From positions 241,559 through 305,558 of the forward strand of contig JAHDXL010000003.1 of assembly GCA_023382935.1 (NCBI GenBank): DNA of 64,000 nt. Direction: 5' to 3'. Shown here one piece after another: positions 33,179 through 62,059 of this stretch. Numbering within the stretch: position 1 is the stretch's first letter; each line of letters begins with the position of its first letter. The translations under genes and the position numbers were made by a program. Source of the stretch: Phycisphaerales bacterium (lineage in GTDB: Bacteria > Planctomycetota > Phycisphaerae > Phycisphaerales > UBA1924). Below the pieces are notes generated by a model that was not told where the DNA came from, did no database searches, and was given only the letters and a program-made list of their open reading frames with translations.

Positions 33179-33262
33179 GCGGGTGTGGCGGAACTGGCAG
33201 ACGCGCGGGATTTAGGTTCCCGTGCCCGAAAGGGCTTGCAGGTTCGATTCCTGTCACCCGCA
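33179..33262 (+). tRNA. tRNA-Leu (anticodon UAG)
   Basis: The acceptor stem GCGGGTG pairs with CACCCGC, the discriminator is A, the anticodon stem CGGGA/TCCCG encloses loop TTTAGGT with anticodon TAG, a class II long variable arm (GCCCGAAAGGGC) is present and the T arm reads GGTTCGATTCC. The mature CCA end is not encoded. It is the last chromosomal gene before the prophage. Confidence 0.95.
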
Positions 33263-33551: not shown

Positions 33552-34472
33552 TCAGCCGACCTCCTGAATGGGCGCGAGGTCGGGAGCCGCGAGTCGCGAG
33601 TCGGGGAAAGCCGAGCCAGTCTCGCGCGGACGTGGAGTCGGGGCGGCGGCGGCGAGGCCGGCGGTGAAGACCCGCGTCGGCTCGGAGAACCAGAACCTGG
33701 CGACGGCCAGCGTCTCGCCCTGGAGCCAGAGGACCAAGTCGGTGATGCCGGCGGCCGCGAAGCCTTCCATCATGGCGGCGCCATCGTCGTGTGTCGCCGC
33801 GGCGATCGCGCCGCCTCCGAAGATGAGCGGGCAGACCTCGGGCCAGACCTGGGCATCAGTGTCGGCGAAGAGATTGAGCAGCTGCTCGCTGGCGATCTGC
33901 ACGCGGCGCTTCTGGGCCGCGGCGGTGATGCCGGCGCCGATCGAGCGGCGGGGGCGCATGGAGGGGAAGACGTGCGTCACCCTGGTCAGTTCGACCAGGC
34001 GGCGAAGTTCGGCGAGCTGGTCGGGCGTGTAGCCGCTGGCGCCATGCAGAGCAGGCAGGGCAAAGAAGCCGATGGAGGGGGAAGACACGGGCGGGACGCC
34101 CGTGCCACCGAGATCCGCGGCCTGGGTGGCGGCGGAGATGCCGGCCATGTAGGCGAGGGTGAGCGGGTCGATCGACTGCGCCAGCGTCAGGAAGCGGAAC
34201 TGCTCGGCGCCCTCGCCCGGCTCGTAGTCGGGCATGACCACCGCGGGCGGGTCCAGGTCCGGACGACGCGCGAGCTTGCGGCCGAGCACGGTGCACCAGC
34301 GGTGGTGGCCAGTCTGCGCCATCGCCTGATCAGCGAAGCGATCGGTGCCCTCGGCGACGGGGAGAATCTCGTCGCCGATTCCGAGGCCGCCCGAGATGCG
34401 ATTGATCAGATAGCGGTGGGCCTCGTCAAACTCGGGATGCTCGCCTCCGGTGATGGCGGGGTGGATCAGCAT
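33552..34472 (-). CDS. Last gene of the prophage early operon, unknown function
   Basis: A 306-aa soluble protein with no recognised domain; notable stretches are HHRWCTVLGRKLARRPDLDP and LTLAQSIDPLTLAYMAGISA. A palindromic repeat at 34086-34109 inserts GGTGVPPV in frame near residue 127. A tandem repeat at 33572-33608 makes up the C-terminal tail (SRLAAPDLAPIQEV). Start ATG 34472 overlaps the end of the upstream gene by 7 bp, as elsewhere in the operon. Confidence 0.65.
   Translation of the reverse strand: MLIHPAITGGEHPEFDEAHRYLINRISGGLGIGDEILPVAEGTDRFADQAMAQTGHHRWCTVLGRKLARRPDLDPPAVVMPDYEPGEGAEQFRFLTLAQSIDPLTLAYMAGISAATQAADLGGTGVPPVSSPSIGFFALPALHGASGYTPDQLAELRRLVELTRVTHVFPSMRPRRSIGAGITAAAQKRRVQIASEQLLNLFADTDAQVWPEVCPLIFGGGAIAAATHDDGAAMMEGFAAAGITDLVLWLQGETLAVARFWFSEPTRVFTAGLAAAAPTPRPRETGSAFPDSRLAAPDLAPIQEVG
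33572..33608. repeat. GTCGCGAGT array
   Basis: GAGGTCGGGAGCCGCGAGTC-type heptamers forming the C-terminus of the gene at 33552. Confidence 0.85.
34086..34109. repeat. Palindrome family A, copy 1
   Basis: ACGGGCG-GGA-CGCCCGT core ending GCCACC. In frame in the minus-strand gene at 33552, encoding GGTGVPPV. Confidence 0.9.
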
Positions 34473-37189: not shown

Positions 37190-37581
37190 GGCGCCACCTT
37201 CCGGCTCTGCACGCGGGGGTCGCGGTTGGAGGTTGCGAGGTACGTGCGGCCGGTGTGCTTGGCCCAGGTCTCATCGATCGCGTCGATGACGGACATGCAC
37301 ACGTCGGAGGAATCGATCACCGTGCCGTTGTGCCCGGTGCAGCTCGCATAGTTCGCGAGCACCGCCAGCACGCTGTCGCGGACCTGGTCGTGGATCAGCA
37401 TCGCCAGCATGAGGCCGCGCTCGCCGTCGTCGGAGTCGAGCCACTTGAGGAACTCCTGATGGCGGTAGTCCTCACGCTTGCGCAGTGTCTCCTGGAAACG
37501 GGCGAAGGAGAGATCGACGGGCGGGACGCCCGTGCCACCATCAGGAGTGGGACCGATGGGACTCATGGGACCGATGGTCAT
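37186..37581 (-). CDS. Prophage early-operon protein with N-terminal repeat insertion
   Basis: A 131-aa protein, helical from about residue 25 (FARFQETLRKREDYRHQEFL, GERGLMLAMLIHDQVRDSVL). The palindromic repeat at 37516-37539 inserts GGTGVPPV near residue 15, after the N-terminal MTIGPMSPIGPTPD. No family recognised. ATGA overlap upstream. Confidence 0.6.
   Translation of the reverse strand: MTIGPMSPIGPTPDGGTGVPPVDLSFARFQETLRKREDYRHQEFLKWLDSDDGERGLMLAMLIHDQVRDSVLAVLANYASCTGHNGTVIDSSDVCMSVIDAIDETWAKHTGRTYLATSNRDPRVQSRKVAP
37516..37539. repeat. Palindrome family A, copy 2
   Basis: Same 22-bp core as copy 1. Encodes GGTGVPPV in the minus-strand gene at 37186. Confidence 0.9.
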
Positions 37582-39191: not shown

Positions 39192-39670
39192 GGCCGCACC
39201 TCCGGTGCGGGCGCGAGGTCGCGAGTCGCGAGTGGCGAGTCGGGAAGATGCGGAGATGGAACAAAGGCAGCGAGCGCTGCCACGCGTCCGTCTTTTCGCT
39301 TGCTGTCGATCAGGTAGTCGTCGTCCAAATAAACCGTCCGTGTCGGCTGGTCTCCGGCTTCGGGTGCCTGGTCGCTGGTGGCTGGTGCCTGCTCGAGCGC
39401 TGGGCGGAAGAGCATGCGGAAGTCGCGGTCGGACATGAGGACGGGAGTGGACTCGGAGGTGAGGATCAGCCAGTCGCCGTGGCCGGCGGAGACCTCGGTC
39501 TCGCCCAGGCCGATCGCGACGCGACGCAGCGCCCGCTTGATCTTCACGGTGTTCGGCAGCTGCGGCGCGCCGTCGGCGAACCACAGCGCGGAGATCTGCA
39601 CCGCCTGGATCGCCTCGCCGCGGAGGACGTAGGGAGCGAAGTCGGGAGTAGGTCTCGATGTCTTTCCCAT
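39188..39670 (-). CDS. Prophage early-operon protein, unknown function
   Basis: A 160-aa protein. Residues 1-95 look globular (ALWFADGAPQLPNTVKIKRA, WLILTSESTPVLMSDRDFRM). Residues 96-115, APATSDQAPEAGDQP, and the C-terminal tail SPLATRDLAPAPEV (repeat at 39208-39248) are low-complexity repeats shared with other prophage genes. Its start ATG 39670 shares one base with the MuB stop (TGATG). Confidence 0.6.
   Translation of the reverse strand: MGKTSRPTPDFAPYVLRGEAIQAVQISALWFADGAPQLPNTVKIKRALRRVAIGLGETEVSAGHGDWLILTSESTPVLMSDRDFRMLFRPALEQAPATSDQAPEAGDQPTRTVYLDDDYLIDSKRKDGRVAALAAFVPSPHLPDSPLATRDLAPAPEVRP
39208..39248. repeat. GTCGCGAGT array
   Basis: Same family, forming the C-terminus of the gene at 39188. 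Confidence 0.85.
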
Positions 39671-40779
39671 CACGCCACCTTCGCCTTTCTGCTCAGCTTC
39701 AGCGTGGTCTGCTGGAAGCCGGTGGCGCCGGCCATCTCGCGCAGGGCACGCTGCACGTGCTTGAGTTCGATCGTCTCGGTGCGCTGAGACTGCGCGATGA
39801 GCTTGGCGGTCAGCAGCACCATCGACGCCTTGCCCAGTGCTCCCCAGCCGGGGATGTTGCACAGTTCGGTGATGAACTCGGCCGCGTCGCCGGCGAGCCT
39901 CAGTTGCATCGTCTTGGCGAACTTCACCACCTCGTCCACCGTGTAGAGCGGATCGCCCGTCTCGTTGCACTCCTCGGTCACGTTGTAGGTGAAGGAGAAG
40001 AGGCGGCTGATCTGGCCGTGGAACTCGGTGAAGTCGTTGATGACGTCGAAGAAGTCGCGCGTGCCGACGAACACCATCGGCAGCCCCGCCTGCTTGTGCA
40101 GGTCGCGCAGGATCAGCAGCGCCTGCTTGCTGAGCATGTGCGCCTCGTCGATCAGGTGCAGCCGGTTCGAGCCCTTCAATGCCTCGATCAGCGACGTCAC
40201 CACCACGTCCTGGCTCTTGGAGCGGCCTCGTACCTTGTGGGCCTCGGCCAGGTGGCGGATGATGGCGCCCGCGGTGCGCTGCGCACTGGTCAGTTCGATG
40301 TAGACGGCGCCGGGGAACATCGCCTCGGCCGCCTTGCAGACGATCGACTTGCTGATGCCGGACGGTCCGAGGATGGCTCCCATGGTGCCGGTGCGATAGA
40401 CGCCGTGAATCAGGTTGAGCATGTGATCGGCGACGCGCGTACGGACGAAGCCGGTGGGCATGCCCGCGCGGTGGCCCTCTTCACGCACACGCATCCAGCG
40501 GAACAGATCGCGAGCAAGCCGCTCGTTGTCGCCGGCGTAGTTGGCGTTGAAGAACTGGCTGAGCGAACTCTCGCCGCGCCCGGTTTCCTTGTTGACCTGC
40601 TTGAGCGTCAGTTCCTTTGACTGCATGAAGGACCTGACTGAGCGACGTACGTAGTCGATCTGCTCGTCGTTGAGCGGACCCGTTTCGGGCAGCATCCTTG
40701 CCTCCGTCGCTCGCCTCTCCCTGGCAAGCGATTCGGCCACTTCGTGGCCAAAAGGACGGTTGTCAGCGTCGTGGGTCAC
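39670..40779 (-). CDS. MuB-like ATPase, target-DNA activator
   Basis: A 369-aa AAA ATPase that selects target DNA and activates the transposase in Mu-like transposition. An N-terminal HTH (LKQVNKETGRGESSLSQFFN, about residues 59-78) precedes the Walker A GPSGISKS at 138-145 and Walker B LHLIDEAH at 207-214, followed by sensor-like FVGTRDFFDVIND. A second possible start, ATG 40692, has a better Shine-Dalgarno (GGAGG 5 nt upstream). The annotated ATG overlaps the transposase stop by 4 bp. The first 29 residues include a TTGGCCAC/GTGGCCAA palindrome. Confidence 0.9.
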   Translation of the reverse strand: MTHDADNRPFGHEVAESLARERRATEARMLPETGPLNDEQIDYVRRSVRSFMQSKELTLKQVNKETGRGESSLSQFFNANYAGDNERLARDLFRWMRVREEGHRAGMPTGFVRTRVADHMLNLIHGVYRTGTMGAILGPSGISKSIVCKAAEAMFPGAVYIELTSAQRTAGAIIRHLAEAHKVRGRSKSQDVVVTSLIEALKGSNRLHLIDEAHMLSKQALLILRDLHKQAGLPMVFVGTRDFFDVINDFTEFHGQISRLFSFTYNVTEECNETGDPLYTVDEVVKFAKTMQLRLAGDAAEFITELCNIPGWGALGKASMVLLTAKLIAQSQRTETIELKHVQRALREMAGATGFQQTTLKLSRKAKVA

Positions 40780-43112
40780 ACAGACCTCCCATCGCCCCGG
40801 AGGGGCGAACTACCCGAAGACGCCAGAAGAGAAATCACGCGATCGCCTCCGACCTCCCCGTCATCGGCGAGCGCGTCACAGTGCAGATATGAGTCGAGAA
40901 CGCTGGGGCCGTCGTCCAGGGCTCGGCGAGCCGTGACCATGCCACCACTCACTTCATGGGCGAGCAGGTCGATGACGGATGGGCCGGAACACACGGCTCG
41001 GCGAGCCGTGCCACCAACGCACTCGGCGCCGGCGGCTTGCTTCAAGACCTGCTCGGCGTCGACCTGGTCGACGGGCGTGCTGACCAGGCGAAGCGGGGCG
41101 AGCTCGCCGGGGTTGGCCTGCTTGCGCTGCTCGGCGATGCGGGCCTTGGTCTGCTCGACCTCACGCTTCCGCGCCATGTCGGATGTGAGCTCGGCGTCGG
41201 AGAGCGACATGCTCACCGTGTCGATCTGGCGCTTGAGGTCGCGCTTGATCTGCCGCCGCGTGTTCATGGCAGCCTGGAGATCCTCGCGACGGATCGGATC
41301 GTCGGACAGCCCGCCGTGCCGCCCGTTTTCGCGGGCGATGCAGATGAGACGCCAGTCCTCGTCGAAGACGCGGACGCTGCGCAGATCGGACTCGTCGTAG
41401 GAGACGCGGACCTGGCGGCCCGAGCCCATGAGCTCACGCAGCTCGACGGCGTGCTCGCCGTAGCGGACCACCTTGCCGGCGATCTTGAGAGAGACGCCCC
41501 ACTTGTGCACGGTGAGCGGCCGCGTGAAGACCTGCTCGAGCAGGATCAGCGAGTCGGCACGCACCACGCGCATCGCCGGCAGGAAGCGATCGTAGAACTC
41601 GATCGGGCTGAGGCGCTCGGACGTGTCGGCGTCGACCAGGTCATCGATCGCGTGGTCGGCCCGGTGGTTGTACGACTCGAACCAGGTCGCAAACTTCTCA
41701 CGGACCTGCTCGATGGTCGGCAGGTCCATGACGTTGTCCAGACGCTCGGCCCGCTCCATCTTGTCGAGTTCAGCGGCGTCATAACCGGCGTATGAAGGCC
41801 ATTCACGATCGAAGTCGCCGTGCACGGTGCCGAACCAGCGTTCAATCCTGGCCTTGCCGTTGTGGTTGTACGCGACGGCGAAGTGCCCGCCGATGCCCAG
41901 GTGCGTCAGCAGGCCGCACGCCTCACGCTGGATCTGGTCACGCTCGGCCGGAGAGAGGTTGCGGCGCTCGTGCTTGGTGGCGCCGGTGAGCGCGGCGGCG
42001 GCGAAGTCCTTGCCGTTGTCGAGCCAGACGCTGCTCGGCACGCTCACGCCATCGGTGCGGAGCGCATTGAGCAGGGCCTGGCGAATCGTGGCCGAGTTGC
42101 CGGACATCGAGATGACCCAGCCCATCGCGCGGCGCGAGCGGCGGTCGAACCAGGCGGTCAGCCACGGCCGTGCGTGCGTCCAGCGGCCTTCCCTGAACAC
42201 GCGGATGAAGAAGTCGAGCCGGGCGTGGTCGGCCTCCCAGCATTCGCCGGCGGCCCAGGCGTCTGGGTCCTGGCCGATCGGCGCCTGATACTTCTTGCGC
42301 CATGCGTCCTCGCCCTCGCGCTTCAGGCAGATCATCTCGGGCGTGAGCCGTTCTTCCACCAGGTTGAGCACGGTGCGGCGGCTCGGCCAGGCCCAGCCGC
42401 TCGCTTGGGCTTCGGCTTCCACGGTGCGGTGTGCCTTGGCCAGACTCCACTGGTTCGGCGTCAGCCACAGCGCACAGAATCGTGACCAGGCGGCGTCGGA
42501 GCACACCACGTCGCGCGCGGCGGGTCGGCCGCGGTTGTCGAGGCAGCGCACCACGATGCCGGCGAAGTCGTCGCTGGCCGGGCAGGCCTGGTCCAGTTGC
42601 TGCACGCGGCGCAGCGAGAGACGCAGGCCGTACTGCTGCTCCATGCGCGCCGCGAAGGCGGGGTAGTCGCGGGCGATGACCGGAGGCTGCACGCCTTGCC
42701 TCGAAGACTCGGACAAGGCGTGGCACCCAAGGCCCATGCGCCAGCGGCGGAAGGCGATGACGATGTGAGCGCGGGCCTCGGCGTCGGAGCGCTTGGCCAG
42801 CCCGGCCTCGGCGAGCAGTTCGGTGACGGTGGACTTGCCGTTGGGCCGCGTCTCGATGTGGGCACGACGCAGGCGCGGATGGGCGCCCGCGGCGACGAAC
42901 CAACTCTTCGGCCCGTGCGGACTCGGCCGCTGCTCGGCCAGGCCGCGCGGCGCCCACTCGTGCTGACACAGCCGGTTGACCTGGCTGCGCGACTTGCTCA
43001 GCAGGTCGCAGACCTCGGAGGCGGTGTACCAGACCTGGCGGGACGTGAGCGACACGGGAACGCCCGGGCCACCGGCGTGCTTGAGGTCGGGTTGGAGGCG
43101 AAGGGCGGTCAT
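40776..43112 (-). CDS. MuA-type DDE transposase with five repeat-derived insertions
   Basis: A 778-aa transposase catalysing strand transfer of the phage ends. An N-terminal HTH (WYTASEVCDLLSKSRSQVN) binds DNA, followed by the I-beta/I-gamma-type region and the RNase H core with D295 (WEADHARLDFF), D365 (WLDNGKDF) and E424 (ARIERWF). D-D (70) and D-E (59) spacings are close to MuA. A C-terminal coiled region should contact MuB. In-frame repeat peptides lie at 14-20 (GGPGVPV), 129-141 (GCHALSESSRQGV), about 700-710, 723-732 and 766-777. None touches the catalytic residues. A tandem AGCAAAGC array lies just upstream of the start. Confidence 0.93.
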   Translation of the reverse strand: MTALRLQPDLKHAGGPGVPVSLTSRQVWYTASEVCDLLSKSRSQVNRLCQHEWAPRGLAEQRPSPHGPKSWFVAAGAHPRLRRAHIETRPNGKSTVTELLAEAGLAKRSDAEARAHIVIAFRRWRMGLGCHALSESSRQGVQPPVIARDYPAFAARMEQQYGLRLSLRRVQQLDQACPASDDFAGIVVRCLDNRGRPAARDVVCSDAAWSRFCALWLTPNQWSLAKAHRTVEAEAQASGWAWPSRRTVLNLVEERLTPEMICLKREGEDAWRKKYQAPIGQDPDAWAAGECWEADHARLDFFIRVFREGRWTHARPWLTAWFDRRSRRAMGWVISMSGNSATIRQALLNALRTDGVSVPSSVWLDNGKDFAAAALTGATKHERRNLSPAERDQIQREACGLLTHLGIGGHFAVAYNHNGKARIERWFGTVHGDFDREWPSYAGYDAAELDKMERAERLDNVMDLPTIEQVREKFATWFESYNHRADHAIDDLVDADTSERLSPIEFYDRFLPAMRVVRADSLILLEQVFTRPLTVHKWGVSLKIAGKVVRYGEHAVELRELMGSGRQVRVSYDESDLRSVRVFDEDWRLICIARENGRHGGLSDDPIRREDLQAAMNTRRQIKRDLKRQIDTVSMSLSDAELTSDMARKREVEQTKARIAEQRKQANPGELAPLRLVSTPVDQVDAEQVLKQAAGAECVGGTARRAVCSGPSVIDLLAHEVSGGMVTARRALDDGPSVLDSYLHCDALADDGEVGGDRVISLLASSGSSPLRGDGRSV
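40791..40816. repeat. Palindrome family C, copy 2
   Basis: TCGCCCC-GGA-GGGGCGA followed by ACTACCCG. Encodes GSSPLRGD at the end of the transposase. Confidence 0.85.
40919..40938. repeat. Palindrome family B, partial copy
   Basis: GGGCTCGGCGAGCCGTGACC, a diverged copy. Encodes part of the transposase tail (VTARRALD). Confidence 0.7.
40992..41015. repeat. Palindrome family B, copy 1
   Basis: CACGGCTCGGCGAGCCGTG followed by CCACC. In the transposase it encodes GGTARRAV. Confidence 0.9.
42690..42728. repeat. Palindrome family D, copy 2
   Basis: Identical in its arms and loop to copy 1. Encodes the same GCHALSESSRQGV in the transposase N-terminal region. Confidence 0.92.
43053..43073. repeat. 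Palindrome family A, diverged copy
   Basis: CACGGGAACGCCCGGGCCACC; encodes GGPGVPV in the transposase N-terminus. Confidence 0.75.
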
Positions 43113-43120
43113 GGGGAGAG

Positions 43121-43161
43121 CAGCAAAGCAGCAGAACAGCAAAACAGCAGAACAACAAATC
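43121..43161. repeat. AGCAAAGC octamer array
   Basis: Imperfect tandem CAGCAAAG/CAGCAGAA units. Lies between the transposase start and the gene at 43160. Confidence 0.9.
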
Positions 43162-43618
43162 AGGCGGCGGGGAGGTTGACCAGGTCGGCGGCGCGACGCA
43201 CCAGGTCGAGCTGGTGACCGAGAGGGGCGACGAGGACGAACAGCGAGCCGGGCACGCCGACGACGGACATGAGCAGGAGGCCGCGATCGGCCAGCATGCT
43301 GTAGCCGTCGATCACCTGGCGAGCGGTGGGCGACTGCCACGCCGGCTCGCGATGATGATGCACCAGGTTCTCACGCACGACCGCGAGCGTCTCAGCGACG
43401 GACTCGGGCACGAGCGTGGCGACGCCGGAGATCGCGTGCACGTCGGCCTGGCTGATGAGGCGCATGTCGAAGTCGCTGAGCGCGAAATAGGCAGCCTCGT
43501 CGCGATCGATGATCGTCTTGGCGATCGGCGTCGAGTTGATGTCGTGGCGCGGCGAGGCCGAGGCGGTGCCGCACGAGAGACAGGGCCTGATCACTGATGG
43601 ATCGGTAACGGTGGTCAT
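43160..43618 (-). CDS. Prophage early-operon protein, unknown function
   Basis: A 152-aa protein with a CLSCG motif near residue 13 that may bind zinc together with a following Cys/His, then a helical domain (DEAAYFALSDFDMRLISQAD) and a beta-rich end (YSMLADRGLLLMSVVGVPGS). It lies one gene upstream of the transposase. ATGA overlap upstream; a 47-bp gap to the transposase start holds the tandem array. Confidence 0.6.
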   Translation of the reverse strand: MTTVTDPSVIRPCLSCGTASASPRHDINSTPIAKTIIDRDEAAYFALSDFDMRLISQADVHAISGVATLVPESVAETLAVVRENLVHHHREPAWQSPTARQVIDGYSMLADRGLLLMSVVGVPGSLFVLVAPLGHQLDLVRRAADLVNLPAA

Positions 43619-44055
43619 GCTGCCTCCTGCTTCGGAGTCTGCGGAGCATCCGGTGCCACGGGGAATTGCTTCGAGGCGAGGTTGAACCGATCGTCGCCAT
43701 ACGCGCTGACGAGGTTCTCCCAACCGCACACCACAGCGCTGAGGGCAAATGCGCGTGCCATGCCTACCTGTGCGTCCGAGTAGCCGCAGCCTGCCAGCCG
43801 ATCACGCATGACGCGATCAGTAACGTTCACCGCTCCGGTCCATGTCGTGGGCTTGTGCTCGACCAGTGCCCTTGTGAACTCCACGACGGCGATGACGATG
43901 GCCTGTTCGTAGCCGGGGCCAATGCCGCCCAACTCGACGCAGCAGATGATGTCGCCTCTGTCCCAGGCGCTGACCACGTCACGCGCCTCGGCGACGTGCG
44001 TGTCGTCGTAGACGTAAGGCTCTTGAACTCGCTGCTCGACTTCGTGCTGGTTCAT
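43615..44055 (-). CDS. Prophage early-operon protein, unknown function
   Basis: A 146-aa protein (ARDVVSAWDRGDIICCVELG, YEQAIVIAVVEFTRALVEHK, then NVTDRVMRDRLAGCGYSDAQ). Mixed alpha/beta, no recognised family. ATGA overlaps on both sides. Confidence 0.6.
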   Translation of the reverse strand: MNQHEVEQRVQEPYVYDDTHVAEARDVVSAWDRGDIICCVELGGIGPGYEQAIVIAVVEFTRALVEHKPTTWTGAVNVTDRVMRDRLAGCGYSDAQVGMARAFALSAVVCGWENLVSAYGDDRFNLASKQFPVAPDAPQTPKQEAA

Positions 44056-44462
44056 GCCGACATGTCCAATCTCGGCGCGGTGCCGGTGGAGGGGAGCGCG
44101 GACTGGGCCGCGCGGAGCGCGTTCTGGACGCTGGCGAGCTTGTCGCGGACGTTGTCCAGGTGACGATCGAGTTGCGAGGCGGGCACCAGCTCGCGGGCGC
44201 CGACACCGAGGGCGATGGTGATGAGCCGTTCGTCCCGCGTCATGCGCCACAGCGACCGGAGCATCTGCGCGGGCACGGCGAACTGGCCGTCAAGCACTCG
44301 CGTGACGTAGGACTCGGAGCAGCCCATCGCCGAGGCGAGTGAGACCTGGCTGAGCCCGGCCTCGACCAGTACCTCGCGGACGATCGCATTGTCAGTGACG
44401 TTGGCAGGCATGGGACAAGGTGCGGGATCGATCAGGCCGGCGGAGGGTTTGCCGATGAGCAT
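44052..44462 (-). CDS. HTH protein heading the early operon (Ner/CII-like position)
   Basis: A 136-aa protein with a clear XRE-type helix-turn-helix, GLSQVSLASAMGCSESYVTR, near residues 35-54, then a second helical domain (VPAQMLRSLWRMTRDERLIT) and a C-terminal coiled tail (LDNVRDKLASVQNALRAAQS). It is the first gene of the leftward operon, where Mu carries ner, so it probably regulates the early promoter. Start ATG 44462 has an AAGGA further upstream; ATG 44411 is an alternative. A palindromic repeat (44482-44505) lies just upstream. Confidence 0.75.
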   Translation of the reverse strand: MLIGKPSAGLIDPAPCPMPANVTDNAIVREVLVEAGLSQVSLASAMGCSESYVTRVLDGQFAVPAQMLRSLWRMTRDERLITIALGVGARELVPASQLDRHLDNVRDKLASVQNALRAAQSALPSTGTAPRLDMSA

Positions 44463-44481
44463 GGGCGCGAGTCCTTTCGCG

Positions 44482-44505
44482 CACGGGCGGGACGCCCGTG
44501 CCACC
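44482..44505. repeat. Palindrome family A, copy 3
   Basis: Same core as copy 1, in the spacer before the early operon. Confidence 0.9.
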
Positions 44506-44590
44506 ATGAGCGGCAACACACACGCTCGATGAGTTGCTTCCCGCGCCCTCAATGGCGTGGGAGAATGCGGGGGAAGAGACGAAGCGGGGA

Positions 44591-44614
44591 CACGGCTCGG
44601 CGAGCCGTGCCACC
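44591..44614. repeat. Palindrome family B, copy 2
   Basis: CACGGCTCGGCGAGCCGTG plus CCACC, in the structured spacer. Confidence 0.9.
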
Positions 44615-44806
44615 GAAAAGGACCGCGCGGTGTGGTGGGCCGCGCGGTCCAGGCGTATGCGGGCACAAGCCCGCCTGGTGATCAATGGCAGCGCCGTCGT
44701 GCAGGGTGACGACGCTGCCGCGTTGGAGAAATGGTCAGGGGATGGGGAGGCCATGCCCTGACCTGGATGATGCGACCGGCTACACACCGGCGCGGAACTG
44801 GTGAAG

Positions 44807-44872
44807 AGGCGAGATGGCGAGATGGCGAGTGGCGAGGTGGGGAAGGCACACGGCTCAGCGAGCCGTGCCACC
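44807..44872. repeat. GCGAGATG octamer array next to palindrome family B, copy 3
   Basis: GCGAGATG/GCGAGTGG-type units (44807-44846), then CACGGCTCAGCGAGCCGTG (44849-44867) with CCACC. In the spacer. Confidence 0.85.
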
Positions 44873-45304
44873 GGGGGGAAAGCGCCGGCGGGAAGGAGTC
44901 CACCCGCCGGAGCCGGTAGGTCGGCCACAAGCCGGCCATGTACAAGGAAGAGGGAGCGGACCTCGGAGAGTCCTGCCCACCCAGAAAGGTCTCGGCGGTA
45001 GCGACGCCCCGACGAGACCTGCGTGTTGTGCGCCGGCCACGAGCCGGCGGAGAGAAGAGATCCAATAGCGACGCGCCCGGGTTCGAGCGCGCCGCCGGAG
45101 GAGAGAGGCTGGGTGGGGAAGAGAGCCAGATGGCAGATGGCCAGAGAGCCGGATGAAGAGAGAGAGAGGAGGTCGTGTCTGCGGTTTCCGGATTGGATTC
45201 GCCTGGACATCGGAGCCTCCCTCGAAAGCCGTTCTCCGGGCCTTTCGACCGGGAGAAGGATGCATAAGAGACCCGGCCGGGAACGCCCCGGACCGGATGT
45301 GAGA

Positions 45305-45550
45305 TCAGGCGGCGTTGGACAACTGGCTGGTTTGGTTCGGGAACAGTGTTCGAACATCAATCTGGAACGCAGCGTTGAGGCGATCCAGCAGTTCTCCGGC
45401 AGGCAACACATGGCCCGCTTCGATGGCCACGATGACCTGAGCCGGTACGCGCAGTTGTTTGGCAAACTCACGAATGGAGATCTTGATCCTGGCACGCTCC
45501 GCCCGGAAGTTGTCCGCGAAAGTCGGTTCTTTACGCCGAGGTGCTGGCAT
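45305..45550 (-). CDS. XRE-family phage repressor
   Basis: An 81-aa HTH protein: SIREFAKQLRVPAQVIVAIEAGHVLPAGE forms the DNA-binding helices near residues 25-55 (given here only as description of positions). The short size and position fit a Cro/C-type repressor. It uses ATG 45550 with AAAGGA upstream. Palindromic operators lie at 45568-45594, overlapping its promoter region, which suggests autoregulation. It is transcribed in the same direction as the early operon, from which it is separated by the structured spacer. Confidence 0.8.
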   Translation of the reverse strand: MPAPRRKEPTFADNFRAERARIKISIREFAKQLRVPAQVIVAIEAGHVLPAGELLDRLNAAFQIDVRTLFPNQTSQLSNAA

Positions 45551-45567
45551 TGTCGGTCCTTTCCCGA

Positions 45568-45583
45568 TCCACTGGTCAGTGGA
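45568..45583. promoter_or_regulatory. 16-bp palindromic operator
   Basis: TCCACTG-GT-CAGTGGA is a perfect palindrome 18 bp upstream of the repressor start codon. It overlaps the next palindrome by 3 bp. Probably a repressor operator. Confidence 0.6.
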
Positions 45584-45594
45584 ACGTATGTTCC
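45581..45594. promoter_or_regulatory. GAAC-N4-GTTC palindrome (LexA-like or repressor operator)
   Basis: GGAACGTATGTTCC is a perfect palindrome matching the GAAC-N4-GTTC core of the Gram-positive-type LexA box. A weaker relative (GAACATACCTTC) follows at 45606-45617, and GTGTTCT...AGAACAC at 45654-45681. Either SOS control or a cooperative operator set for the XRE repressor. Confidence 0.55.
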
Positions 45595-45653
45595 ATGTAT
45601 CGGGTGAACATACCTTCAAGCATGAGGCAAAGCAAGCGTGGGGTGATCAGAAA

Positions 45654-45681
45654 GTGTTCTGTGGATAACTCTGGAGAACAC
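45654..45681. promoter_or_regulatory. GTGTTCT/AGAACAC inverted repeat
   Basis: A 7-bp inverted repeat with 14 bp between arms, containing the same GTTC/GAAC half-sites as the operators above. It lies 67 bp upstream of the rightward gene at 45748. Confidence 0.45.
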
Positions 45682-45747
45682 CGGATGTCCTGCGCACTGT
45701 CACAAGAAGGTGCTTTGAACTCGTGCGTCCTCAGGACGAGGAAAGTG

Positions 45748-46302
45748 ATGCCGAACACACCAAGGGGAGGACAGTCGGAAGGGTTGCCGGAAGGCTGGTC
45801 GCGACAGGCACTTACGGTGCCACACGACCTGGCCACTCGGTTCAAGGATCTTGCGAGAGAGACCGGGCCTGGAGCGGTCAAGAACCTCGGCACGACTGCC
45901 ATCGCGCTTTTCCTTGGGTTACCCAAGGTGGTCAGGGATGCGATCGCCAGCGAAGTCCACTATCACACATGGAAAAGTCCTCCGGTCGGAGTCGATCCCG
46001 ATGTTGTCTGGCGAGTGCTGCTTGATCAACTACGCAAGAGCATTCCAGAGAAGGACTTGCGTGAGTTCGACCGGATCACCATGGGATTCTGGAGGGATCT
46101 CAGCCAGTGCGACTGGGGCAATGAAAAGCTCGCCGAGTCGAAGAAGAAGGCGGACGAAGCGGCCCAGCAGGAGAAGGAAGCCAAGTGGGCGATCACCCGC
46201 ATCCTCGATCCTGAGCTGACCCCGCCGCCAGGCGAAAAGGCCAGCGACAAGGCCAAGCGGGTCGCAAACGCGGCGAAAGACAAGGGGCGCAAATCCGGGT
46301 AA
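45748..46302 (+). CDS. Rightward protein next to the repressor, unknown function
   Basis: A 184-aa protein. Residues 14-60 (WSRQALTVPHDLATRFKDLA, then KNLGTTAIALFLGLPKVVRD) share a VP-D-A...GxxxxxxTAxxAFLxxPxxxR pattern with the 78-aa protein at 54427. A long charged helix follows (KLAESKKKADEAAQQEKEAK) and a basic tail. ATG 45748 has AGGAAAGTG upstream; ATG 45685 is also possible. It is divergent from the repressor across the operators, so it may be a lysogeny-expressed gene. Function unknown. Confidence 0.65.
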   Translation: MPNTPRGGQSEGLPEGWSRQALTVPHDLATRFKDLARETGPGAVKNLGTTAIALFLGLPKVVRDAIASEVHYHTWKSPPVGVDPDVVWRVLLDQLRKSIPEKDLREFDRITMGFWRDLSQCDWGNEKLAESKKKADEAAQQEKEAKWAITRILDPELTPPPGEKASDKAKRVANAAKDKGRKSG

Positions 46303-46311
46303 GGTAGAGGC

Positions 46312-46797
46312 ATGCCGAAGTACCGGATCATGGGGGCGTGGGAGGACTCGGGCGATCAGGTCAGCGTCGAGATCGACGTGGCCGACGAGGCCAAAGCCGC
46401 GATGTTCGCGGAGCGACGCCGCATCATGGTCCGGCGCATCGTCCCGATGGACGTGCAGCCTGAGGAGCGCGGCATCGTCCTCGAAGCCGACACGGACGGG
46501 CGCACCACCACGGTGATGACCCGGGGCCCGGTGGTGATCGAGCAGGAACGAGCCATGAAGGTGGCGCCGGGGGAGATCCTCCGCAAGCGGCGAGGGCAGT
46601 GGACCTCGGTCCCGCCTGAAGAGGTCGAGCTCGGGGACCTGGTGCACGGCAGGCACGGCTACGCCTACCTGCGCGTCGATCAGCGCGGGCTGTTCTGGAC
46701 GATCGTCTGGGCGTTCGTCGTGGGCAACTTCATGCTGTGGTTCGTGCTCGCCCTGATCGGGCTGACGCTCTACACCAACGGGTATTCGCCCGACTGA
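46312..46797 (+). CDS. Membrane-anchored protein, unknown function
   Basis: A 161-aa protein. N-terminal KYRIMGAWEDSGDQVSVEID plus KAAMFAERRRIMVRRIVPMD resembles a small domain common in planctomycete proteins (recollection). A central basic region is followed by two hydrophobic segments (WTIVWAFVVGNFMLWFVLAL, then IGLTLYTNG). It lies 9 bp after the previous gene. It may be a lysogenic-conversion gene acquired from a host. Confidence 0.6.
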   Translation: MPKYRIMGAWEDSGDQVSVEIDVADEAKAAMFAERRRIMVRRIVPMDVQPEERGIVLEADTDGRTTTVMTRGPVVIEQERAMKVAPGEILRKRRGQWTSVPPEEVELGDLVHGRHGYAYLRVDQRGLFWTIVWAFVVGNFMLWFVLALIGLTLYTNGYSPD

Positions 46798-46813
46798 GGT
46801 TGGTCCCCCACCC

Positions 46814-46837
46814 CCCGGCTCGGCGAGCCGGGCCACC
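46814..46837. repeat. Palindrome family B, copy 4
   Basis: CCCGGCTCGGCGAGCCGGG plus CCACC; located 60 bp upstream of the promoter at 46878. Confidence 0.9.
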
Positions 46838-46877
46838 ACCCCACCGCCCCCGCCCCTGTGGACAACCTGTCCGGTAG

Positions 46878-46905
46878 TTGACAGGGGCCCGGTTGTTGGT
46901 ACACT
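46878..46905 (+). promoter_or_regulatory. Sigma-70-type promoter for the rightward late region
   Basis: TTGACA (46878-46883) and TACACT (46900-46905) are separated by 16 bp. Overlapping upstream are GGACA/TGTCC (46860-46872) and CTGTC/GACAG (46867-46884) inverted repeats that could be an operator. The next gene starts about 310 bp downstream. Confidence 0.65.
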
Positions 46906-47124
46906 CCCCCATGAGCCGATAAGATGATCGCGGGCGAGCACCCAGGAGGCTTCCCATGAAACTGACCAAATGACTGTTCGGGCGACGTGCGGGGAACCAC
47001 GCGTCGAGCCCATTGGATGCATAAGTGAGTGGTGTCTCGGGAAACCGGGGCACCGACAAGCAGACGCCGTTCTCCTGAACTTTCGGCCGGAACTGATGAG
47101 GTTTCGGCTGTGGCCGTTTTTGAG

Positions 47125-50363: not shown

Positions 50364-51868
50364 GGATGGGAGTGGTGAGTCGCGGTGGGGATCTGGCGAG
50401 TCGGAAAGACCACGGGCGGGACGCCCGTGCCACCGGACTGGACGCCCTCAATCGGGACGCGGCGCTGTTGCCGTACCAGGTGCGTTGGGTCGAAGACCAG
50501 AGCCGCATCGCCGTGTGGGAGAAGAGCCGCCGCATCGGCGCCGACTTCTGCGACGCCTTCCGCGCCGTGCGCGAACGCATCACCGGCACGCGCACCACGG
50601 ATTACTGGTACTCGTCGGCCGACGAATCGGCGGCTTTCGAGTACATGCAGTACGTCAAGACCTGGGCGCTGGACGTCTACGGCCTGGTGCTCGAACTGGT
50701 CGACGGCGTCGAGCGCTTCGGCAAGGAAGACGTGCGCGTGATGAGCGTCACGTTCCCGCAGATCAACGGCCGCCGGCCGCGCATCATCGCGATGGCCAGC
50801 AACCCCAAGAGCTTCCGCTCCAAGGGCGGCGACGTGTGCCTCTCGGAGTTCGCCTTCCACGACAACGCGTTTGAACTGTGGAAGGCGGCCCGGCCGGTCA
50901 TCACCTGGGGCGGCCGCGTGCGGATCCTCAGCTCGCACAACGGCGTTGAGAGCATGTTCAACCAGATGGTCGAGATGGGACGCCGGCACGCCGAAGGCAG
51001 CCCGCGCCCCAACGACATCGCGGTGAGCCTGCACCGGACCACCATCGATGACGCGATCGCCGACGGCCTGGTCGAACGCATCAACCTGGTCAGCGGGGAG
51101 AGCCAGAGCCGCGAAGAGTTCCGCGAGGCCTGCCGCCGCGACTGCGGTGATGAACGCATCTTCGCCGAGGAATACCTGTGCCGGCCGAGCGAGGAATCGG
51201 GCTCGTACTTCCCGTACGAACTGCTGCGACCGAGCGTGGCGGCCGACGCTCCGCCGGCACGCACGAGCATCAGCGAGTTTGTTGCGGACCTGCACAAGTA
51301 CGGGGCCGGCGCCGAGACGATTCGCTCGGGCATCGACGTGGGCCGCAAGCGTGATCGCTTCGTCATCTGGGCGATCGCCCGCTTCGGCAGCATGCGGCGG
51401 ACCGTGGGCATCCTGGAACTGGAAGACGAGCCGTTCGGCGTGATGGAACTGGCGATCTCGATGATGATGGGCGCGAGACTCTCCGCCCAGGAGGGGCGGG
51501 CCACCCAGGTCAGCCGGTGCTGCATCGACGCCACGGGCATCGGCATGCAACTGGCCGAGCGGGCCCTCGAGAGTTACCGCACCCGCGTCGAGGCCGTGAC
51601 CTTCACCAACGCGGTCAAGGAAGACCTGTTCACCCGCATGCGCCGCGACATCGAGGAACGCACCGTCACCATCCCCGATGACTCGACCGTGTTGGCCGAC
51701 ATCAACTCGATCCGCAAGACCGTCACCAGCGCTGGCAATGTCCGCTTCGACGCCCAGGCGACCGACCTCGGCCACGCCGACCGGGCGACCGCCCTGGCCC
51801 TGGCCCTGCACGCCGACGACCGCAAGGGCGGCGAGGCGCGATACGTCAAGGTGGAGGACCGGCGATGA
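50360..51868 (+). CDS. Large terminase subunit (Mu gp28-like)
   Basis: A 502-aa ATPase-nuclease that packages phage DNA. The Walker A-like segment EKSRRIGADFCDAFRAVRER is near residue 54 and the Walker B-like region DVCLSEFAFHDNAFELWKAA near 155. The nuclease part has the acidic residues IDVGRKRDRFVIW and CCIDATGIGMQLAERA and DLGHADRATALALALHAD. The first 30 residues are repeat-derived: VVSRGGDLASRK and GRDARATG (repeats at 50371-50409 and 50411-50434). A further palindrome at 51482-51506 adds SAQEGRAT inside the nuclease domain. Confidence 0.88.
   Translation: MRMGVVSRGGDLASRKDHGRDARATGLDALNRDAALLPYQVRWVEDQSRIAVWEKSRRIGADFCDAFRAVRERITGTRTTDYWYSSADESAAFEYMQYVKTWALDVYGLVLELVDGVERFGKEDVRVMSVTFPQINGRRPRIIAMASNPKSFRSKGGDVCLSEFAFHDNAFELWKAARPVITWGGRVRILSSHNGVESMFNQMVEMGRRHAEGSPRPNDIAVSLHRTTIDDAIADGLVERINLVSGESQSREEFREACRRDCGDERIFAEEYLCRPSEESGSYFPYELLRPSVAADAPPARTSISEFVADLHKYGAGAETIRSGIDVGRKRDRFVIWAIARFGSMRRTVGILELEDEPFGVMELAISMMMGARLSAQEGRATQVSRCCIDATGIGMQLAERALESYRTRVEAVTFTNAVKEDLFTRMRRDIEERTVTIPDDSTVLADINSIRKTVTSAGNVRFDAQATDLGHADRATALALALHADDRKGGEARYVKVEDRR
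50371..50434. repeat. GGTGAGTCG array and palindrome A copy 4
   Basis: Both lie in the first 30 codons of the large terminase; the palindrome (50411-50434) encodes GRDARAT. Confidence 0.85.
51482..51506. repeat. Palindrome family K
   Basis: CCGCCC-AGGA-GGGGCGGG type, ending GCCACC like families A and B. In frame in the large terminase (SAQEGRAT). Confidence 0.65.
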
Positions 51869-53622
51869 GCGCGATGCCGAACAACGGGCTCAGGCTGGCC
51901 GGAAGCACGGCGGCGCCCAAGACGGCCGGGTACGTCGCGCCGGCGGGCACCATGGATGAGCTGCGCCGCCGCCGCCGCGTGCGCCACATCTTCCGCGATC
52001 TGCACAGCGGCCGCTGGAGCCGCGTGCTGCTCGACCTCCAGATGAGTCAGCACCGCTACCGCGACCTGGCCCGGCACAGCGGCAAGATCGAACCCCTGCT
52101 GGCCAAGGTCAACTTCTTCCGCCTGGCCAACTCGTTCCACGCGACCGTGACCGCGGGCAACCCGGTCAACACCATCGTCGCCGATGGATTCGACGAACAG
52201 TCCGACGCCATCGACGCCATCCGCACCACCTGCCTCTTCGACACGCTGCTCATGGAGGCGGTGCGGGCCGTCAACATCGACTGCGAAGCGCCCCTCCGCG
52301 TCAGCGTCACCGACGCCGGCACCGTCATCACCCAGGACGATCCTGACCAGACCCTCCCGGTCGGACCGGCAGGCCCGGACGGCCAGCCCACCGTGTGGGA
52401 ACGCCGCTGGATCGTCGAGCGCAAGGACGCCGCCGGACGGGCGATGCGATTCCTGCGCGTCGAGCGGCACCGCGTGTTGAACGGCCGGGGCGTGATCGAG
52501 CAGGAGGCGTACAAGGCCTCGGGCGATCGGGCGTGGGCGCTCTCCGACGTGCTGGTGGACCTGGACAGCCTGGTGCGCGTGGAGGTGGCGGATGCGATCA
52601 CGGGCGGGACGCCCGTGCCACCGGACATGGTGGAGACCGGCGCCAGCTACCCGGCCATCGTGCAGCTGGTCGCTGACCGCGAACGCGGCGAGCCGATGGG
52701 CAAGATCGCCGAGCATGACCTGGACATCATCGATGAATCGGCCGCGGCCTTCAGCCGCATGAGCCGCGCGCATGACCTGCACTCGACGCCGCTGCTGCGC
52801 GTCAGCGAGCAGATGGTCGACAAGAAGACGGGCAAGGTGCAACTCGGCGATGACGGCGTGCTCGACCCCGAGAAGATCGTCGAGTACATCGCGCAGGGAT
52901 TCGACCTGGGCCGGATGCTCGAAGCACTCGACCGCATCCTCGGCCTGCAACTGGTCATGCTGCGGATGAGCCAGGCCCTGCTCGGCTTCAAGATGGGCGG
53001 CGGCTCGGCCCCCGACTCGTACGAGAAGCTGCGGCTGGAAGGCACCAACACGCTGGCATGGGCCAGGCAGACCACGGCCTACTGCGCCCCGGCCCTCGGC
53101 CGCCTGTTCACCGTGGCCACGCAGATCGACGCACGCCTGCCCCTCCGCGGCTACGCCGTGGCCCCGGTCACCGTCGAGATGCGCCCGGAACTGCCCAAAG
53201 ACCGCGTTGAACTGGTGCGCGAGGTAGCCGAGGAAAGGCGGGCGGGACTGCTGAGCCTTGAAAGCGCGCTGACCAAGGTGAACGGCGCGAACGGCGCGCG
53301 GGGAGAGCTGGAAAAGCTGCTGCGGGAGGAAGAGGAAGAACGGCGGCGCAAGGCCGAACAGGCTGGGGCGCTGGCAGCGGCGCAGGCAAAGGGAAAGCCG
53401 TTTGCGTACCTGAGCGGCGAGCAGTTGAAGGTGGCGCTGGAGATCGTGCAGGGCGTGGACAGTGGAAAGATGGCGGCCGACGCGGCGCTGGGGCTGCTGG
53501 TGCAGTTGTACGGCTTCGACGAAGACTTGGCTCGCCGGATGGTGGCGTCGCAGGCGGACCTGACACGGCGGCAGGAAATGAACCTGCTCGGGGACCTGCT
53601 GAGCAACGGGAGCGCGACATGA
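51865..53622 (+). CDS. Phage portal protein
   Basis: A 585-aa protein placed directly after the terminase, as portal proteins are. Helical hairpin and wing regions are visible: LDIIDESAAAFSRMSRAHDL, KIVEYIAQGFDLGRMLEALD and DSYEKLRLEGTNTLAWARQT, and a long helical C-terminus (GELEKLLREEEEERRRKAEQ). It fits the SPP1-gp6/Mu-gp29 class in size. The palindromic repeat at 52599-52622 inserts TGGTPVPP near residue 248, in a loop. 4-bp overlap with the terminase. Confidence 0.8.
   Translation: MSAMPNNGLRLAGSTAAPKTAGYVAPAGTMDELRRRRRVRHIFRDLHSGRWSRVLLDLQMSQHRYRDLARHSGKIEPLLAKVNFFRLANSFHATVTAGNPVNTIVADGFDEQSDAIDAIRTTCLFDTLLMEAVRAVNIDCEAPLRVSVTDAGTVITQDDPDQTLPVGPAGPDGQPTVWERRWIVERKDAAGRAMRFLRVERHRVLNGRGVIEQEAYKASGDRAWALSDVLVDLDSLVRVEVADAITGGTPVPPDMVETGASYPAIVQLVADRERGEPMGKIAEHDLDIIDESAAAFSRMSRAHDLHSTPLLRVSEQMVDKKTGKVQLGDDGVLDPEKIVEYIAQGFDLGRMLEALDRILGLQLVMLRMSQALLGFKMGGGSAPDSYEKLRLEGTNTLAWARQTTAYCAPALGRLFTVATQIDARLPLRGYAVAPVTVEMRPELPKDRVELVREVAEERRAGLLSLESALTKVNGANGARGELEKLLREEEEERRRKAEQAGALAAAQAKGKPFAYLSGEQLKVALEIVQGVDSGKMAADAALGLLVQLYGFDEDLARRMVASQADLTRRQEMNLLGDLLSNGSAT
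52599..52622. repeat. Palindrome family A, copy 5
   Basis: In frame in the portal gene, encoding TGGTPVPP. Confidence 0.9.
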
Positions 53623-55033: not shown

Positions 55034-56239
55034 GTGAGAACCGCTCTTCGATTCGCCTTTGTGCTGGTGTTGATTGCCCTTCACGGGTGCAGTGAAACGG
55101 CGCTGGCGGCTCCCTCGCTGGCGCTTCGGGCTCGTACCGATCTCACGACCGCACGACTCCCCGGCTCGGCGAGCCGGGCCACCGCGGAGACCACCATGGC
55201 ACCGCCCCTCGGAGTTCCTGATTCGGTCACCGCGCAGATGGTGGCGATGTATGAGGCGGCGGCCGAGGACATCAACAAGATGGCCGGCCGCGCGTTCGCG
55301 CAGCTGGCCGAGACGCCGGACCTGGCCAGCGCCCGGTTCCGCCTGGCCCGCGCGGCCGAACTGGAACGACAGATCGTCGAGCGGCTCCGCCGGCTCAACG
55401 TGGCGATCCCCGGCGTCATCAGCGAAGCAACCCGGCAGTCGATCGAGTCGGCGATCGCCTTCGGTGAGCGCGAGCTGGCGGACCTCGGCCTGGACCCGAA
55501 AAACGCACAGCCCGGCGTGGCCGGCTCGATCGGCTTTGCACTCGTGGACGAGGACGCCGTGCGCGTCATCGCCGAAGACACCGCGGCCCGCGCCGTCGAG
55601 TCGATGCAGACCAGCCTGGTGCGCGGCGCAGCCGACCACGGCCGCCGGGCAGGATCGGTGTTCCGGAGCCTCTCGGAGAGCGCGGCCAATGTCGGCGGCT
55701 CGGCCGAGCGTGAAGTGAACCGGGCGATTGCCCGCGGCCTGATCACCGGTGACCCGATCATCGCCGATCGCGCGGTGCGTGACCTGTTCCGCGATCCGAA
55801 CGCGGTCGAGGGCGTGCGGAAACTGGGCAACAAGATCATTGAAGTCGGCAACGCCAGCATGACCGTGCGGGCCTACGCCAGCACGGTGGTGCGGACGCGC
55901 ACGCGCGAGGCCACCGAGACGGCCCGGCACGGACGACTCGGACTCTCGGGCATCAGCCTGGTGCAGATCACCGGCCGCGTGTCGAAAAACTTCTGCACGG
56001 CGTTCATCGGGCTGGTGTGCAGTCTGAGCGGAGAGCAGACCGTGGACGGGGTGACCTACCCGGCTCTCTCGAGCCTGCCCAACGGCGGAGCGCCGTTCCA
56101 CCCCAACTGCTCGAAGAGCACCGCGGCGTACGTGCCGGAACTGGTCAGCGCCGGCCGCGTGGCCATGCACGAGAAGGCGAGCATCGAGTATCGCGCGCGG
56201 GTGCGCACCGGGCGGCTGCTGGCCGACGTTCGGAACTGA
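55034..56239 (+). CDS. MuF-like head morphogenesis protein fused to a lipoprotein-like N-terminus
   Basis: A 401-aa protein. From ATG 55196 (residue 55) the sequence (TAQMVAMYEAAAEDINKMAG, EREVNRAIARGLITGDPIIA, CTAFIGLVCSLSGEQTVDG, then PFHPNCSKSTAAYVPEL) is a MuF/SPP1-gp7-type head protein, with the PxHPNC motif typical of the family. A GTG at 55034 with GGAGG 6 nt upstream adds a signal-like RTALRFAFVLVLIALHGC and repeat-derived LALRARTD and GSASRAT (55112-55183). Either a fused lipoprotein head or a second start at 55196 (GGAG, spacing 8) is used. Confidence 0.75.
   Translation: MRTALRFAFVLVLIALHGCSETALAAPSLALRARTDLTTARLPGSASRATAETTMAPPLGVPDSVTAQMVAMYEAAAEDINKMAGRAFAQLAETPDLASARFRLARAAELERQIVERLRRLNVAIPGVISEATRQSIESAIAFGERELADLGLDPKNAQPGVAGSIGFALVDEDAVRVIAEDTAARAVESMQTSLVRGAADHGRRAGSVFRSLSESAANVGGSAEREVNRAIARGLITGDPIIADRAVRDLFRDPNAVEGVRKLGNKIIEVGNASMTVRAYASTVVRTRTREATETARHGRLGLSGISLVQITGRVSKNFCTAFIGLVCSLSGEQTVDGVTYPALSSLPNGGAPFHPNCSKSTAAYVPELVSAGRVAMHEKASIEYRARVRTGRLLADVRN
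55112..55183. repeat. Family F copy 3, CTCACGAC array and palindrome B copy 5
   Basis: Three repeat types in a row inside the N-terminal part of the MuF-like gene; encode LALRARTD and GSASRAT. Confidence 0.85.
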
Positions 56240-61487: not shown

Positions 61488-62059
61488 CCGTCGCGGAGAC
61501 CACCGCCATCATCGAGATGCAACTGCCATCCACCGATGAACGCCGCACGGCGTGGGAAGCGCTCGTACCGGGCGACCAGGCCGTGTGCGCACGCCAGGCC
61601 AGCGCCGACATCGACGCGTGTCTCTGGAAGGGACGCGTCGAAGACCCGGACGGGCAGAGCGCGATGTGGCCGCGAGTGTGGGACGAAGCCGGCCACAGCG
61701 CGAGCACCACGGGCGAGACGCCCGTGCCACCGGACGGAGTCACCATCCTGCCGGGCGGTGAGATGGACCTGCCCCAGGCTCTGATCGATGACAGCCAGAC
61801 CGAGTGGAGCGTCGCGAGCATCCCCGCGGGCATCCGCGTCGCCACGGCCATCCAGGCGGCCGTACGGGCGATGCGGGCGCTGGGGTATGACAAGACGCGC
61901 CAACACCTCGACGCGGCACACGGAGGCGTCACGGCCAAGAGCGGGGCGTTCGGATCGGTGTCGTTCGGAGCGCGGGCGACCAGCTGCTGGGCCAACCTGG
62001 ATCGAGACGCCCTGGCGGCGGCGATGGAGTTTGCACGCGCGAGCGCGGGGCTCGCGTGA
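61478..62059 (+). CDS. Head-tail connector-like protein (gp36-like)
   Basis: A 193-aa protein (YLTVAETTAIIEMQLPSTDE, GDQAVCARQASADIDACLWK), then a helical end (GIRVATAIQAAVRAMRALGY). Size and position suggest an adaptor that joins the head to the tail. The palindromic repeat at 61708-61731 inserts TTGETPVPP near residue 79. Starts after GGAGG. Confidence 0.68.
   Translation: MYLTVAETTAIIEMQLPSTDERRTAWEALVPGDQAVCARQASADIDACLWKGRVEDPDGQSAMWPRVWDEAGHSASTTGETPVPPDGVTILPGGEMDLPQALIDDSQTEWSVASIPAGIRVATAIQAAVRAMRALGYDKTRQHLDAAHGGVTAKSGAFGSVSFGARATSCWANLDRDALAAAMEFARASAGLA
61708..61731. repeat. Palindrome family A, copy 6
   Basis: ACGGGCG-AGA-CGCCCGT core ending GCCACC. In frame in the connector gene (TTGETPVPP). 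Confidence 0.9.

Follow-up and report, generated by a model that had tools for sequence, protein, structure and literature searches.

Which feature of a prophage would place a dense series of hairpins between its repressor gene and its early genes? The question arises from a gene-free stretch of 842 bp (44463–45304) in the window analysed here, a piece of 64,000 nucleotides (G000:C3:241559-305558) from a Phycisphaerales bacterium whose genome comprises 3.72 Mb in 35 contigs. A first-pass annotation had proposed an attenuator-type lysogeny switch or a centre-site analogue for this gap. The analysis described below leads to another answer: the hairpins are a real and largely explained feature, namely a cluster of REP-type elements in a transposable prophage, together with one likely terminator.

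In the numbering of the window, the prophage extends from ~33.3 to ~71 kb. The end of a tRNA-Leu is located at 33262, and L211, the stretch next to the window, has tail genes up to about position 7124, followed by a gene that we take, from reading its sequence, to be uracil phosphoribosyltransferase-like. Left of the gap, the minus strand encodes a MuB-like ATPase (39670–40779; phrog_296, E 4e-34) and, adjoining it, a MuA-like transposase (40776–43193; phrog_310, E 8e-69, with Pfam HTH_Tnp_Mu_2 and DDE_2 over the cut-off), the gene pair that identifies a Mu-like transposable prophage. Terminase, portal, minor head and major head genes are located right of the gap on the plus strand; relatives of the portal protein were absent from the viral contigs searched. 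The gap itself is bordered by an HTH gene, the first of the early operon (44052–44462, minus strand, with a start at 44462 or 44411), and by a small HTH repressor gene (45305–45553, minus strand). The repressor and the early genes, which run leftward from 44462, thus share the minus strand, as had been stated before. On its other side the repressor gene is followed by a control region of 194 bp between divergent genes (45554–45747).

A count of perfect inverted repeats in the gap (arm length 6 bp or more, loop no longer than 12) gave nine, the longest of which is GGACCGCGCGG/CCGCGCGGTCC (44620–44650, 11 bp, loop 9). The mean of 300 dinucleotide shuffles was ~3.3–3.4, and nine repeats were reached in 8 of them. 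For arms of at least 7 bp six repeats were present versus a mean of 0.98, and for arms of at least 8 bp five versus 0.25; none of the 300 shuffles attained either number, and a repeat run with 1000 shuffles again gave none that matched the count for arms of at least 7 bp. The density claimed earlier (at least seven perfect repeats with arms of 6–11 bp) is confirmed by these counts, which are well above those of the shuffles. The gap is also the longest in the early arm, where the other gaps listed measure 47–194 bp (gene coordinates entered by hand), and in agreement with the earlier description no convincing gene was found in it. A search of positions 43000–47000 against Rfam resulted in four sub-threshold matches (best E 0.023, far under the gathering score) that we attribute to chance.

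Three of the strongest hairpins of the gap, at 44482, 44591 and 44849, share one plan that consists of a stem, a loop and the motif CCACC. The core unit has a length of 24 nt and is formed by a perfect stem of 8–9 bp with a loop of 1–3 nt, followed by CCAC; viewed on the opposite strand, GTGG is located directly 5' of the stem. Two types can be distinguished. Type 1 (CACGGGCG-gga-CGCCCGTG-CCACC) is represented in the gap at 44482–44505, a piece matched by many family genomes, and type 2 by CACGGCTC-ggc-GAGCCGTG-CCACC at 44591–44614 and by the variant CACGGCTC-agc-GAGCCGTG-CCACC at 44849–44872, both of which were likewise matched in family genomes. Eight more copies outside the gap, several of them inside genes, complete the 11 copies of the prophage. 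Type 1 is found within minus-strand genes at 34086–34109 and, with the outer pair broken, at 37516–37539, at the 5' end of the terminase gene (50411–50434), in frame within the portal gene (52599–52622, read as GGTPVPP) and within a plus-strand gene at 61708–61731. Type 2 is found in the region encoding the C-terminal tail of the MuA-like transposase (40992–41015) and, with CCCGGCTC arms, in an intergenic position at 46814–46837 and before the minor head gene (55160–55183). The C-terminal tail of the transposase (40900–41060) is unlike that of its relatives and carries a partial second REP (40920–40935) in addition to the complete one; it looks extended or duplicated. A literature search for the peptide read-out GTGVPPV gave no match.

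According to the definition in PMC6006769, a REP has a GTAG or GTGG tag 0–2 nt 5' of a fully paired stem of 7–20 nt with a loop of 2–5. In each of the 11 prophage copies the stem is followed by CCAC on its 3' side, without a gap except for one base at 37516; type 1 has 8 pairs and a loop of 3 (7 pairs at 37516), and type 2 can be read as 8 pairs with a loop of 3 or as 9 pairs with a loop of 1. CCAC adjoins 10 of the 19 perfect stems (at least 8 pairs, loop 1–5) present between 33.3 and 64 kb of the window but none of the 17 in 112 kb of host DNA used as control. We then considered 263 perfect stems with other arms at type-1 loci, a set from which the arms used for fetching the loci had been left out. 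These stems were selected as paired, so that their pairing is given by construction, but the tag was not selected; the commonest neighbouring tetramer was CCAC (47), followed by CTAC (22). Matched changes of both arms were present, for example CATGGGC.GCCCATG, CACAGGC.GCCTGTG and CAGGGGCG.CGCCCCTG. That CCAC is the most frequent tag at stems with other arms indicates that the arms vary while pairing, loop and tag persist. At viral type-3 loci CTAC (69) exceeded CCAC (19), which indicates that other kinds of REP are present there. The flanks of 124 aligned REP copies were without conservation past the outer base of the stem.

When the three REP copies were removed from the gap, three repeats with arms of at least 7 bp were left versus 0.72 expected (reached in 13 of 500 shuffles) and five with arms of at least 6 bp versus 2.7 (67 of 500). 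This modest excess means that not every hairpin of the gap is explained by REPs. The gene-free region 44463–45304 is a mosaic of interspersed repeats, some of them hairpins and others purine-rich: a DNA search with 44400–45620 gave short and piecewise matches in 66 of 163 family genomes (own genome included; the count is low since only two candidates were scored per genome), and the gap as a whole was found in none of the other family genomes of this set. The pieces matched were both REP types, the purine-rich GGCGAGATGGCGAG array (44808–44829, plus strand) with the third REP, a purine-rich interspersed piece at 45103–45172 (plus strand; matched in three or more family genomes, among them G614, G549 and G528) and parts of 44624–44721. 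The hairpin GCGCGA/TCGCGC (44465–44482) exposes on the minus strand the loop AAGGAC, the likely ribosome-binding site of the gene at 44462. A hairpin of a second kind has the loop ACAA (44659–44674, plus strand). Imperfect hairpins are present at 44687–44719 and 44987–45020 (12-long arms) and at 44733–44763 (13-long arms), and a hairpin with a perfect 8-bp core and a loop of 10 at 44882–44913. At 44916–44937 (plus strand) GTAG directly precedes a hairpin with the loop CACAA, which gives it the look of a GTAG-type REP; no family-genome match was listed over it. Two other hairpins of the gap share the loop type of this GTAG-preceded hairpin at 44920, and a hairpin at 45031–45049 (plus strand) has 7-bp arms and the loop CACGA.

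Repeats of other kinds occur elsewhere in the window. The repeat CGGACAAGGCGTGGCACCC is present at 36084, 42710 and 48279, each time on the plus strand, and was absent from the 39 other genomes searched; for the second prophage repeat, GTGCCACGCCTTGTCCG, a search of 40 genomes gave its three prophage copies only. Purine-rich CAGCAAAG arrays at 43117, 47127, 47406, 47538, 48388 and 62566 are all on the plus strand and are confined to the prophage part of the window. Positions 1–90 of the window contain long G/C runs with potential for strong hairpins.

Of the 15 REP copies located in the whole genome (3.7 Mb), the prophage harbours 11: six of the eight exact copies of type 1 (none for the reversed control) and five of the seven copies of type 2. 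Type 1 was present in 13 of 61 relatives and in 10 of 199 genomes of the phylum (own genome included in both), with up to 85 exact copies in one genome, the dispersal characteristic of a REP. Among the matches listed for a named collection, mostly metagenome bins, type 1 appeared in Planctomycetota, Verrucomicrobiota, Sumerlaeota, Acidobacteria, Armatimonadetes and others. The chromosomal copies that we read, in the own genome and in one of the same genus, adjoin ordinary bacterial genes, as far as these can be identified by reading their sequences. A search of 72,556 plasmids with one prophage copy yielded chance-level partial matches only. A contig of Lentisphaerae (L103) carries 14 mostly alternating copies within about 2 kb, an array that resembles the BIMEs of E. 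coli.

All 11 prophage copies are located on the plus strand, six of them among minus-strand genes and five among plus-strand genes. A second phage genome, the 37-kb contig IMGVR_UViG_3300048839_001685 (L249, L250, L251), has all of its 31 strict GTGG-REPs on the plus strand (32 of 32 on one strand with a looser pattern), set in purine-rich tracts. It encodes a terminase of phrog_15 and a portal protein of phrog_21, families from which we take it to be a lambda-type phage, and has no protein match to the Mu-like prophage. Neighbouring copies at least 200 bp apart were on the same strand in 8 of 8 cases in the prophage (strict counts omit the 7-pair copy at 37516), in 17 of 17 in the lambda-type contig, in 16 of 19 in other viral contigs and in 8 of 24 at bacterial loci; the comparison of the prophage and the other viral contigs with the bacterial loci gave p = 5e-5 (Fisher). 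At the bacterial loci 38 of 54 close pairs were outward-tagged inverted pairs. The lambda-type contig was counted apart in the viral neighbour and G-strand counts, the near-duplicates L274 and L287 (spacing as in L255 and L270) were left out of the neighbour and first-set G-strand counts, and L288 is absent from these two counts and from the tag counts.

Gene direction does not set the orientation of the REPs, since two viral stretches differ in this respect: in L316 (IMGVR_UViG_3300020005_000015) nine of nine REPs are on the minus strand with all predicted genes on the plus strand, and in L275 four of four REPs share the plus strand with the genes. Another stretch of the former contig, L314, has one REP on the plus strand, so that the ratio over both stretches is 9 to 1. 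Viral contigs with REPs on both strands also exist. In a fresh viral set, for which two predictions had been fixed beforehand, same-strand neighbours prevailed by 12 to 5, mostly from one contig, and inverted pairs occurred there as well. Support for the one-strand pattern is best in phages with many copies, and this grouping was made in part after the data had been seen. Two possible correlates of orientation were rejected. REPs were on the G-richer strand in 38 of 48 cases of the first viral set, but this link, the other of the two predictions, failed in the fresh set (20 of 35, p = 0.5) and is accordingly not claimed; orientation by purine content holds for the lambda-type contig and for the prophage but fails at the bacterial loci. 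None of the titles and abstract beginnings returned by a literature search describes strand-polarised REPs in phages.

How did the elements reach the prophage? We consider it probable that a Mu-like prophage gathered REP-type elements along with further short interspersed repeats, that the gap is a cluster of them, and that the REPs arrived as single-stranded insertions. REP copies would enter the phage in trans as single-stranded DNA, presumably through a TnpA-REP/RAYT-like Y1 (HUH) enzyme of the present or an earlier host, and would land on a strand that is regularly exposed by phage replication. Landing on such a strand would produce one orientation per phage, and copies would pile up in the gap because it tolerates insertions. 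The known chemistry is compatible with this route: Y1 transposases act on single-stranded DNA, insertion into the lagging-strand template is described for IS200/IS605 relatives and GTGG is accepted as a REP tag (PMC6006769), and GTGG substrates are cleaved by a Y1 REP enzyme with the cut site shifted to CC (PMC8266576). A search of the own genome (95.4% complete) gave no match to a Y1 transposase. In 30 of ~98 Y1 loci listed for relatives, tags of the GTAG kind (GCTA 13, CTAC 11) were more frequent than CCAC (6). Y1 genes of related genomes (L014, L017, L018, L028, L031) are flanked by GTAG-tagged or similar hairpins with other arm types. No Y1 transposase flanked by the GTGG-REP was found in the loci examined, so that the arrangement of a RAYT-mobilised REP (REPtron), a Y1 gene flanked by the same REP, was not encountered. 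An empty site was not found either; the closest portal homologue aligns across the REP without a gap.

The alternative closest to the original annotation assumes that the chain of hairpins controls whether transcripts started at the repressor promoter continue into the early operon and thereby takes part in the lysogeny decision. Compared with 20 shuffles per strand, both strands of the gap indeed fold far more strongly as RNA, the minus strand (z = -7.85) more so than the plus strand (z = -5.57); on the leftward transcript the predicted fold is a series of stems separate from one another, and the likely ribosome-binding site ahead of 44462 lies within a hairpin loop. In addition, the 11-bp stem at 44620–44650 is followed, in the correct direction, by TTTT. 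It is a candidate intrinsic terminator (44616–44650, minus strand), at which the repressor transcript, running leftward, would end about 150 bases before 44462. Three stems of at least 8 bp with four T in the next five bases are present in the window versus 0–1 per shuffled window (n = 10), and 2 of the 500 shuffled gap sequences contained a terminator-type site. The built-in terminator scan, with its loop limit of 8, missed this stem because its loop is 9; a dedicated scan found it. Judged by its sequence, this non-REP hairpin probably ends the repressor transcript; for the remaining hairpins of the gap no regulatory role is evident from the analysis. The earlier suggestion that the longest hairpin might terminate or attenuate transcripts is thus plausible with respect to termination, but attenuation finds no support: there is one terminator candidate, one fold per strand revealed no alternative fold, and neither mutually exclusive structures nor a leader peptide were identified. 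Three of the hairpins are moreover copies of an element that is found in unrelated genomes as well, with piecewise matches in the 66 family genomes mentioned above, and that is also located within structural genes or next to them (34086, 50411, 52599, 55160, 61708), late ones among them. The only palindrome that clearly resembles an operator, GGAACGTATGTTCC (45581–45594), sits across the repressor gene in the control region on its other side; for these reasons the attenuator-type switch is unsupported. A scan for sigma-70-like promoters between 43500 and 46500 gave no site, and a REP-free relative prophage in G039 is laid out differently and is without such a gap. We therefore regard control of read-through by the hairpin chain as unlikely. 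The proposed centre-site analogue does not agree with the map, since in a prophage of ~33.3 to ~71 kb the gap lies ~30% from one end and not at the centre. Gyrase binding is described for some REP arrays of E. coli (PMC5977238).

The CCAC hairpins could also be selected marks that give the DNA a polarity, serving for instance in packaging, in protection of the DNA or as sites for a topoisomerase; selection of this kind would explain the shared strand. The use of one strand per copy-rich phage, independent of gene direction, and the spread of the copies along the prophage from 34 to 62 kb are what such a signal would predict. A mark of this kind is difficult to reconcile with the stretches of relative prophages (L199, L203, L204, L212, L213, L214), which lack any strict copy, with the 50,697 deposited phage records, in which two prophage copies found chance-level partial matches only, with the inverted pairs formed by the same elements in bacterial chromosomes, and with the copies that interrupt genes, and we consider it improbable. 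Equally improbable is that the gap is neutral filler whose palindromes and purine-rich repeats were created locally, through slippage and template switching. The purine-rich simple repeats of the plus strand and the non-REP hairpins, which are mostly unmatched elsewhere, would fit, but exact 24-nt units common to many unrelated genomes are not expected from local events.

Accumulation of REPs as single-stranded insertions, the reading that we prefer, can be compared with systems already described. The GTAG-tagged REPs of PMC3733652 likewise have a short perfect stem, a tiny loop and a tetranucleotide tag adjoining the stem, as well as compensated arm variation, inverted pairs or groups and intragenic copies. 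In the family GTAG-20 of O. terrae most elements carry GTGG (Di Nocera et al. 2013, PMC3733652), a likeness that is based on the tag statement in the text; location in phages and a single-strand bias are not described in the available text of that article, from which the word 'phage' is absent. With REPINs and their RAYTs (Bertels and Rainey 2011, PMC3116915; PMC8266576) the bacterial copies share the close, outward-tagged inverted pairs. The prophage copies differ in being single and on one strand, with no inverted pair that could act as a REPIN unit, and in a genome in which no RAYT was found. Rickettsia palindromic elements are likewise palindromes located within reading frames, but are CGTC-tagged according to PMC3733652, whereas the prophage elements are GTGG-tagged. 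In Pseudomonas aeruginosa, transposable phages of the Mu type have been tied to REP sequences (PMC5977238), but these phages insert close to REPs of the host, whereas here the REPs are inside the phage.

Note that REPs are usually viewed as chromosomal elements tied to a resident transposase. A prophage with 11 of 15 copies, in a genome in which that transposase was not found, suggests a route of transfer, and what had been supposed to be a regulatory switch becomes an ordinary, countable feature. The new parts are the loading of a phage with REPs and the strand bias; one strand per phage is a simple and testable prediction of single-stranded insertion during phage replication. As a tentative extension, which we put forward as a possibility rather than as the expected case, phages may receive REPs and carry them across species as single units on one replication-defined strand, and may thereby record the REP-moving enzymes of past hosts and seed hosts that have no such enzyme.
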